The notes below the pieces were generated by a model. The model was not told where the DNA came from. It was given only the letters and a program-made list of their open reading frames with translations, and made no database searches. DNA of 51,059 bases. It comes from Prosthecobacter debontii (GTDB taxonomy: Bacteria > Verrucomicrobiota > Verrucomicrobiia > Verrucomicrobiales > Akkermansiaceae). A program made the translations under genes and the position numbers. Below are positions 22,148 through 24,681 of this stretch, piece after piece (the first letter of the stretch is position 1; each line of letters opens with the position of its first letter). The DNA is taken from positions 1 to 51,059 of the forward strand of contig CAMBQC010000002.1 in NCBI GenBank assembly GCA_945869855.1, in the 5' to 3' direction.

Positions 22148-23506
22148 TCACAAACCCGCCCCGGAGAAAATCAACCGAAACGCGGGTGAGAAATCCTCAG
22201 GGCTGGCCGCCATCCATACTTTGATCTCCGGGATGGGGAAAGGCATCATGGATTCGATTTCCGCGGCGGGGAAATTCACCGCGCCGCTGTGGCGGGTGAG
22301 GAAAACATGGATGTGCTCCCAGCCGGTTTCGACGGACGGTTTCACTGCGGCGATGTGTTCCAGATCCTTCGCGTTCGCGTCGATCCCGATTTCCTCGCCG
22401 AGCTCGCGGACAGCGGCCTGGAGATAGTCCTCACCCGCATCGAGGTGGCCGGAAACGCTGGAGTCCCAGACACCCGGATTCATGTCTTTAAGGCGCGAGC
22501 GTTTCTGGAGATACAGGTCGCCGTTGCGGTTCAGTACGTAGACGTGCACCGCGCGGTGGACGAGTTTTTTCGCATGAACCTCGGCTCGTGTGGCGGTGCC
22601 GACGGGAACATCGTTTTCGTCGACGACATCGAAGATTTCTTCACTTTTCTGCGGCTTGTCCTTGAGCGGATGGGTGTCGTATTCGCGGGTCAGCTCGATC
22701 CATTTCGCAAGATCCAGCTCCTCGCCGCGCGTGGTCGGAGGCCAGCCGAGTTTCTCCGCAACCTCACGCCACGGCGGCGAGTCCGGAAGCTGCTTTCCGA
22801 GTTGCTTTCTCCTCTGGGAAAATCCCCGGCGCACGAGTTCGTCGAACAGCCGGAGGTCGAAGGTCGGCTCGCCAACCTCGTTGCGCGGGGTCAGCACAGC
22901 GACGGCGGAGTCGATGCTAGGGCGCGGATAGAAGGCCTCCGGCGGCACCACACGCAGCGGCGTGATTTCCCAATCCACCTGCATGCGCAGGCTGAGGATG
23001 CCGTAATCCTTCACGCCGGGCTGAGCGGAAAGGCGGTCGATCACTTCTTTCTGCAACATGATCACGGCCCGTGAAAACGGATGCGGGCGGCAAAGCATGT
23101 TTTTCATGATCGCGCCTCCGGAGGAATAGGGCAGGTTGCCGAGAAATTTGACCGGGCGGTGCTTGAAAAGGGCGCGGCGGTCGAACTTCGCGCCGTCGGC
23201 GTGGTGCACTTCCACATCGTCGCGGTCGCGGAAACGTTCCCTCAGCTCGGCCGCGAGGCGGGTGTCGAACTCTACGAGGATTACACGCTTCGCTTTTCCG
23301 AGCACATGCTCCGTGAGCGATCCCGTGCCGGGGCCGACCTCTACGACCGTGTCTTCGGCGGAAATCTCGAGTTGGGAAACGATCCAGCGCGCCATGTTCG
23401 GATCGGTCAGAAAATTCTGGCCGAGCTGCTTGCTGGGGAGCACCCTGGCGCGGTCGAGTGCATCGCGTATTTCCTGTCCGTTCACGGCGGGATGCTGCGT
23501 GTGCAT
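22148..23506 (-). CDS. rsmA: 16S rRNA dimethyladenosine transferase RsmA fused to a Nudix domain
   Basis: A 452-residue two-domain protein. Residues 1 to about 265 are RsmA/KsgA, which dimethylates two adjacent adenines in helix 45 of 16S rRNA: LGQNFLTDPN, SAM motif VVEVGPGTGSLTEHVL, motif IV NLPYSSGG, and FSQRRKQLGKQL. After a short linker, residues from about 285 form an IDI/YfcD-like Nudix domain with EIFDVVDENDVPVGTATRAE and a complete Nudix box, GHLDAGEDYL to RELGEEIGI (353-375). RsmA alone is about 270 residues. There is no stop or frameshift between the halves. It follows the secreted unknown gene by 27 bp. Confidence 0.92.
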   Translation of the reverse strand: MHTQHPAVNGQEIRDALDRARVLPSKQLGQNFLTDPNMARWIVSQLEISAEDTVVEVGPGTGSLTEHVLGKAKRVILVEFDTRLAAELRERFRDRDDVEVHHADGAKFDRRALFKHRPVKFLGNLPYSSGGAIMKNMLCRPHPFSRAVIMLQKEVIDRLSAQPGVKDYGILSLRMQVDWEITPLRVVPPEAFYPRPSIDSAVAVLTPRNEVGEPTFDLRLFDELVRRGFSQRRKQLGKQLPDSPPWREVAEKLGWPPTTRGEELDLAKWIELTREYDTHPLKDKPQKSEEIFDVVDENDVPVGTATRAEVHAKKLVHRAVHVYVLNRNGDLYLQKRSRLKDMNPGVWDSSVSGHLDAGEDYLQAAVRELGEEIGIDANAKDLEHIAAVKPSVETGWEHIHVFLTRHSGAVNFPAAEIESMMPFPIPEIKVWMAASPEDFSPAFRLIFSGAGL

Positions 23507-23533: not shown

Positions 23534-24088
23534 TCAGCGGCCGGTGAACACCCTGCCCTTGCCGGTGACCCATGCGGTCTTAGCGCTCCCATAAAGCGCA
23601 CCGAGCTGTTGTTCGGAAAGCAGGCGGTATTCGATCGTCTTGGAGTGTGTGGTGAGCGGATATTTTTTGACTACCATGTCTTGGACATCCACACCTGCCC
23701 GCCGCACCGCGCCATCGAGTAGCGCCGCCGCCCTTTCCACCGCATCCGCCGCTGCCGCGCCAGTGCCTCCCACCTCGATCGGTGAGATGAAATAGAACCT
23801 AGCCAGCGCCTGGCCCTCGGTGTCGATCGTCACCTCATCGACGATGACCGAACCGTCTAGCACATACTTGTGGCGGCTCACTGATGAGATTCGTCCCAAG
23901 GCGACCATATAGTTTCCGCCCACAAGATTAGCTTCCCAAAAGCCGTTTCGGGTTTCCTTGTCGTTGTCTTTGTCCTTTTCTTGCTGAGATACTTCAGAGT
24001 CCGGATTCGGTCTAGGGTTGTTGTTTTGAGCAAAAGCAAGCGGTGAAAAGGCCACAAAACCCATAAAGATAAATGACAGATTATTCAT
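23534..24088 (-). CDS. Secreted protein of unknown function
   Basis: A 184-residue protein with a signal peptide (LSFIFMGFVAFSPLAFAQ). A low-complexity Asn/Asp/Lys-rich segment follows, and then an alpha/beta domain containing HKYVLDGSVIVDEVTIDTEG and a helix rich in alanine (GTGAAAADAVERAAALLDGA). I do not recognise the family. ATG 24088 was chosen because the longer frame to 24220 puts 44 polar residues before the signal peptide. It is the first gene of a minus-strand run with rsmA and the cyclase, and divergent from the RppH-like gene. Confidence 0.72.
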   Translation of the reverse strand: MNNLSFIFMGFVAFSPLAFAQNNNPRPNPDSEVSQQEKDKDNDKETRNGFWEANLVGGNYMVALGRISSVSRHKYVLDGSVIVDEVTIDTEGQALARFYFISPIEVGGTGAAAADAVERAAALLDGAVRRAGVDVQDMVVKKYPLTTHSKTIEYRLLSEQQLGALYGSAKTAWVTGKGRVFTGR

Positions 24089-24189
24089 AGCTTTGTTTAA
24101 TGCCACCGAGATACGGTTTTGACCAGCCTGTAGATGCATTAGAAAAGTTAAATATTGATCGGACTTTGAGAATTTGTCAGGCTTTTTAC

Positions 24190-24681
24190 ATGGTTCATTA
24201 TCGCCCGAACGTTGCGGCACTCATTGTGAATGCTAGTGGCAGTCTTTTAGTTTGTGAGCGCTTCAATCTGCCGGGTGCGTGGCAGTTCCCACAAGGTGGT
24301 GTCGATGACGGAGAAAGTATGGAGCAGGCATTGATCCGTGAGGTTCGCGAGGAGGTGGGGCTCGGGAAAAATGACTACGAGATCCTCGAGCGCCGTGATG
24401 GCTACCGCTACCTATACCCGCCCGAAGTCCGTGTAAAAAAAATTCGAAAGCACGGCAACCATGGCCAGGAGCAAACCTATTTCCTCTGCAAGCTGAAGGA
24501 CACCGCCCCGCCCATCGACGTGAAACAGACGCCACAGGAATTTGGCGCTTACCGCTGGATCTTGCCCGAAGAATTCGATCTCGACTGGATACCCTCCTTC
24601 AAGCGTGAGGTTTATCGCGCCGTGATGGAGGATTTTTTCAACGTCAACCTAGAGTCCGCACCGATTGCGCGGCCTTCATGA
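24190..24681 (+). CDS. RppH-like Nudix hydrolase
   Basis: A 163-residue Nudix protein. It begins VHYRPNVAALIVN, matching the YRPNV start of RppH/Ap4A hydrolases. It contains WQFPQGGVDDGE, then the Nudix box GGVDDGESMEQALIREVREE ending in VGL. RppH removes pyrophosphate from mRNA 5' ends; relatives hydrolyse diadenosine polyphosphates. ATG 24190 is preferred to ATG 24100 because family members have no N-terminal extension before YRPNV. Two Nudix proteins thus lie within about 2 kb, counting the RsmA fusion. Confidence 0.88.
   Translation: MVHYRPNVAALIVNASGSLLVCERFNLPGAWQFPQGGVDDGESMEQALIREVREEVGLGKNDYEILERRDGYRYLYPPEVRVKKIRKHGNHGQEQTYFLCKLKDTAPPIDVKQTPQEFGAYRWILPEEFDLDWIPSFKREVYRAVMEDFFNVNLESAPIARPS

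Follow-up and report, generated by a model that had tools for sequence, protein, structure and literature searches.

RsmA (KsgA), the 16S rRNA dimethyladenosine transferase, is nearly universal and ranks among the best-studied ribosome assembly factors. It binds the platform of the pre-30S particle via its C-terminal domain, retains particles until methylation and monitors 17S rRNA maturation (PMC9032327). In Vibrio cholerae, ksgA forms an operon with apaH, the gene of an Ap4A hydrolase (PMC6606805). Among Nudix hydrolases, DR_0079 favours cytosine di- and triphosphates (2017 Nudix clan review), and plant NUDX3, which carries a canonical Nudix box (PMC9820243), hydrolyses IPP, DMAPP, GPP and FPP and converts IPP and DMAPP to their monophosphates (PMC11062433, PMC6412517).

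In this report, we analyse a gene of Prosthecobacter debontii in which RsmA and a Nudix domain are encoded as one protein. The window, i.e. the whole stretch of DNA analysed, is 51,059 nucleotides long (GenBank assembly GCA_945869855.1, contig CAMBQC010000002.1). Our literature searches combining RsmA, KsgA or dimethyladenosine transferase with Nudix found no relevant description. The 2017 Nudix clan review held no match for methyltransferase or RrnaAD, and rsmA is not mentioned in the main text of the V. spinosum essential-genome paper. The architecture is undescribed in the searched literature, yet it joins two known families and is not categorically new.

Results

The fusion gene lies at 22148..23506 on the minus strand, with its ATG at 23506 and its stop codon at 22148-22150, and encodes 452 amino acids. 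A sequence-only reading of this DNA had reported one continuous RsmA-Nudix frame at these positions with a complete Nudix domain and an intact catalytic box at residues 353-375. Our analysis agreed on each of these points, and the frame contains no stop or internal start. The RsmA/KsgA half (22679..23506, minus strand; residues 1-276) matched TIGR00755 with 224.2 bits (cutoff 171) over residues 24-274, which cover positions 3-254 of the 256 in the profile. Its SAM motif VEVGPGTG begins at residue 55 and NLPY at residue 124. A linker without a start codon (22640..22678, minus strand; residues 277-289) leads to the Nudix half (22151..22639, minus strand; residues 290-452). PF00293 matched the protein at residues 317-428 with 64.9 bits, above the gathering cutoff of 21.1. 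The Nudix box GHLDAGEDYLQAAVRELGEEIGI (22382..22450, minus strand; residues 353-375) has the form G353-x5-E359-x7-R367E368-x2-E371E372-x-G374 and fits the consensus GX5EX7REUXEEXGU. No ATG, GTG or TTG codon is present in residues 269-296; a separate start of the Nudix half there is thus impossible and the two halves are made as one polypeptide.

Both halves were predicted to be complete folds. The AF2 model of the full-length fusion had a pLDDT of 92.4 and a pTM of 0.89, and the Nudix half modelled alone had a pLDDT of 94.9. The RsmA half gave a complete KsgA fold, which aligned with B. subtilis KsgA (6ift) across 277 residues (Z score 29.9), and structural comparison of the model showed a complete Nudix fold in the other half. 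The first half thus resembles the known RsmA/KsgA proteins (TIGR00755; 6ift, 7o5h) in full family length, SAM and NLPY motifs and fold. The solved structures, however, align to the first ~280 residues only, whereas here a second enzyme follows. The stretch corresponding to residues 272-290 is exactly 19 residues long in 78 of 98 fused sequences. This short linker of near-constant length, together with the pTM, suggests that the two halves are packed and not loosely strung in the model, the pTM being the sole value that speaks to packing.

The window comes from a MAG of about 2 Mb, about 80% complete and in 136 contigs, in which an assembly or sequencing error might have removed a stop codon. 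The sequence-only reading had itself set this case against the fusion, with relatives keeping separate genes. The case fails because relatives share the fusion. When the full protein was used as query, co-linear matches extended across both halves in 89 of the 91 order relatives with a true rsmA hit. For one of the 89 (G025), the alignment carried a flag for a stop codon. In the other two relatives (G023 and G058), the matches ended at contig ends. Among the best 80 loci in named records, 78 contained the whole protein without a stop, one was cut at a contig end and one had one stop codon within the alignment. All 80 loci belong to Verrucomicrobiota, so that chromosomes of other phyla lie outside this sample, and the nearest named relatives among them are Akkermansiaceae. 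The isolates Akkermansia glycaniphila, A. muciniphila, Haloferula luteola and Rubritalea profundi carry the fusion. The chance of an error in the MAG is negligible, and this explanation is excluded because the same frame recurs in the 89 relatives from the order, in 78 named contigs and in four isolates. The fusion is genuine and not an assembly artefact.

We examined how far the fusion extends. Every Verrucomicrobiales member of the class sample was fused, and the fusion was also found in 55 class genomes outside the order, from 13 further families. Two 0.92-Mb single-contig genomes outside the order (L071 and L089) contain the fusion with both halves intact. Conservation across Verrucomicrobiota, a point raised with the original observation, therefore holds for Verrucomicrobiales and the 55 further class genomes and does not reach the rest of the phylum: neither fusion nor adjacency of the two genes was found in 74 phylum genomes outside the class. 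Plasmid and phage records (1,499 and 38 matched, 1,537 in total) gave no match covering 80% of the fusion. Several MAG contigs labelled Akkermansia muciniphila (L188, L192 and L196) encode proteins closest to the window's genus, not to Akkermansia isolates, and their species labels look wrong. Besides the fusion, the complete same-genus genome G004 has a separate 141-aa ORF (L269:1098-1523, plus strand) whose product closely matches the Nudix half alone (82% to the window) but lacks its first 30 residues. This ORF is possibly a recent partial duplication.

The catalytic motifs were compared in an alignment of 98 fused and 58 unfused sequences (156 sequences). The SAM motif is universal in the fused set (G58 and G60 in 98/98) and NLPY is kept in 96 of the 98 fused rows. 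In two Verrucomicrobiales sequences (L176 and L178, family f3) NLPY is changed to ALPY; the Asn is otherwise universal in the fused set. REXXEE is invariant in the fused (98/98) and unfused (58/58) sequences, and R367, E368, E371, E372 and E397 are universal in both sets. L078, L088 and L185 (family f45) carry Cys, Gln or Asp instead of the first Glu of the box (E359), with the rest of the box intact. For the Nudix half, eight of nine pairs gave dN/dS ratios of 0.08-0.19 and the remaining pair gave 0; the RsmA half gave 0.03-0.15 where computable. For the two 0.92-Mb genomes, the ratios were 0.19 (Nudix) and 0.15 (RsmA). These low values indicate that both halves are maintained by purifying selection.

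By sequence profiles, the solved proteins nearest to the Nudix half are YfcD, DR_0079 and type I IPP isomerase (IDI). Structural comparison gave the same three neighbours, with Z scores of 22.8 (YfcD, 2fkb), 22.3 (DR_0079, 2o5f) and 21.8 (IDI, 1nfs), while shorter IDI chains scored 17-18 and every other structure below 17. The IDI/YfcD likeness claimed from the sequence was thus recovered, and PF00293 and structure place the Nudix half in the IDI/YfcD/DR_0079 branch. YfcD and DR_0079 have the same fold and the same type of box but are single-domain proteins and lack residues matching the IDI metal site at H311 and H354. The score with the YfcD model NF011922 (71.4) is below its cutoff of 152. 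H311, H317, H354 and E397 are invariant (156/156) and align with His25, His32, His69 and Glu116 of E. coli IDI, which, together with Glu114, we take to be metal ligands of that enzyme. The position of Glu114 is Gly in most sequences.

With this fold and four putative metal-ligand positions matching IDI, the C-terminal half might be thought a type I IPP isomerase. We consider this identity very improbable and reject it on residues and cutoffs. The known enzymes (1nfs and 2pny; fold Z 20.5-21.8) share the aligned His25, His32, His69 and Glu116, but they also have the catalytic Cys, Trp161 and Glu114 and lack a canonical Nudix box, whereas the canonical REXXEE is invariant here. The position of isomerase Cys67 (residue 352) is Ala in 60 and Ser in 38 of the 98 fused rows, and Trp161 is not conserved in the aligned sequences. 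The scores with both IDI models are below their cutoffs (TIGR02150, 70.1 vs. 105.8; PRK03759, 82.4 vs. 127). In addition, IspH is encoded in the window's genome; the MEP route can thus supply IPP as well as DMAPP, and an isomerase is not strictly required. By these comparisons, a diphosphohydrolase with an IDI-like substrate pocket is the most economical reading of the Nudix half. A prenyl diphosphate and a nucleoside diphosphate appear about equally likely as its substrate. Plant NUDX3 resembles the fusion in that a Nudix domain with a canonical box, presumably IDI-like, is joined to another enzyme. It differs in that the partner is dipeptidyl peptidase III and the Nudix domain is N-terminal, while here it is C-terminal.

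The Nudix half could instead act on RNA 5' ends or caps in the manner of RppH, Dcp2 or ApaH, with RsmA delivering it to pre-rRNA or ribosome-bound RNA. The binding of RsmA to pre-30S particles with monitoring of 17S rRNA (PMC9032327) and the ksgA-apaH operon (PMC6606805) fit this possibility. It is nevertheless unlikely, because RppH (BdRppH) and Dcp2 structures reach a Z score of only about 14 to the Nudix half compared to about 22 for YfcD, DR_0079 and IDI. At 1e-10, the Nudix half hits four NCBIfam models, none of which is the RppH model (PRK00714), and an RppH-like gene is encoded separately in the genome. That gene (24190..24681, plus strand), noted earlier as a neighbour, lies outside the fusion about 680 bp from its start. 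Its ORF encodes 193 aa (24100-24681, plus strand), with similarity beginning at about residue 31 (about 24190), and it scores narrowly below the cutoffs of its best NCBIfam models, which describe RNA pyrophosphohydrolases (113.5 vs. 118). Its closeness to the fusion is not conserved in relatives and is incidental. A 228-aa ORF just upstream of the fusion (23537-24220, minus strand) has no Pfam or NCBIfam match and shares its 5' part with the RppH-like ORF of the opposite strand.

No conserved operon partners that name a pathway were found: the commonest neighbour cluster occurred in 9 of 58 loci, in a count that leaves out the fusion itself and ORFs antisense to it. In Vibrio as well, rsmA is beside the gene of a phosphate-bond hydrolase, a parallel that may be coincidence. 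In a Monoglobus pectinilyticus record (H8, NZ_OY725740.1:42030-42953), an annotated XTP/dITP diphosphatase gene directly follows rsmA. This is another house-cleaning pyrophosphatase adjoining rsmA, in a different phylum.

We searched 148 unfused class genomes individually for both halves. rsmA and the matching Nudix gene were same-strand neighbours within 3 kb in 37 of them, often overlapping or a few bases apart; they were unlinked or on different contigs in 95, and only one half was detected in 16. In three further genomes, the halves are in the same frame and parted by a single stop (TAG, TGA and TAA, respectively). In the linker of one fusion (L082), a Met remains at the position expected for the start of the Nudix gene, which fits an origin of the fusion by stop loss. 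The adjacent pairs, the single-stop genomes and this Met make a merger of adjacent genes, one of the origins proposed in the sequence-only reading, the best-supported origin.

Trees of the RsmA half and the Nudix half were built separately. The main fused clade had 35 rows with an SH-aLRT of 97 in the RsmA tree and 36 rows with 95 in the Nudix tree. Fused lineages f34, f22 and f7 fell outside this clade in both trees, and f51 in the RsmA tree only. By parsimony, each tree requires four changes; the well-supported branches demand a minimum of three in the RsmA tree and two in the Nudix tree. The supports stem from a rapid search, the deeper branching is often left open, and single MAGs make up some of the small lineages. 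One old main fusion and about three later ones are probable from these trees, and fission events are possible. The gene probably originated, several times, by fusion of neighbouring genes.

The same history might carry no functional meaning. Two housekeeping enzymes that were neighbours by chance may have lost a stop codon, and selection may not have opposed the joined state. A stop is easily lost between in-frame genes that lie a few bases from each other, the L082 linker holds an apparent old Nudix start, and most unfused class genomes have the two genes unlinked. We regard this explanation as a serious one but lean against it, because the fusion recurs in several lineages and is kept across the whole order and in the two 0.92-Mb genomes, and because the pair stays adjacent in many families where nothing else nearby is conserved.

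Discussion

The two halves are encoded in a single conserved frame with intact motifs and are under purifying selection. Judged from sequence comparison, the protein is fairly probably a bifunctional enzyme, consisting of a normal RsmA/KsgA and an active Nudix diphosphohydrolase of the IDI branch, not an isomerase, that came from repeated fusion of the rsmA-nudix pair. The N-terminal half would dimethylate A1518 and A1519 of 16S rRNA. The C-terminal half, attached to the C-terminal end of RsmA, would hydrolyse a small diphosphate in a metal-dependent manner, either a prenyl diphosphate such as IPP or DMAPP or a nucleoside di- or triphosphate, and is predicted not to isomerise IPP. Because RsmA docks on the pre-30S particle, the Nudix half may reach the maturing subunit with it, or at least be produced in a fixed ratio with RsmA. 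The Nudix activity may thereby be coupled to 30S maturation. Several data count against the bifunctional reading. The genes are apart in 95 of the 148 unfused class genomes, so the coupling is not obligatory; no wider operon is conserved; and family f45 departs at E359. The sequence-only reading suggested a functional tie to late ribosome assembly, which the repeated fusion and the adjacency make plausible, with many class members keeping the genes far apart.

A more specific proposal, which we put forward as doubtful, is that RsmA of Verrucomicrobiae, as a checkpoint enzyme of the 30S subunit, bears a diphosphohydrolase that senses or clears a metabolite. Late small-subunit maturation would then respond to how much of a small prenyl or nucleoside diphosphate the cell contains. 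If true, ribosome quality control would be physically tied to metabolism, a feature absent from other known RsmA proteins.

Verrucomicrobiales, including the gut bacterium Akkermansia, seem to make RsmA only as a two-enzyme protein. A knockout or annotation of "rsmA" in bacteria with the fusion therefore touches two enzymes. Genes that fuse repeatedly, and that are neighbours in related genomes, are a classic indication that their functions are linked, and this pattern thus offers a lead to the substrate of the YfcD/IDI-like Nudix branch. It also hints that 30S maturation may receive a metabolic input, and it allows a functional partner of a universal ribosome factor to be tested directly. These data suggest that ribosome maturation and metabolite clearance are linked in a way so far overlooked.
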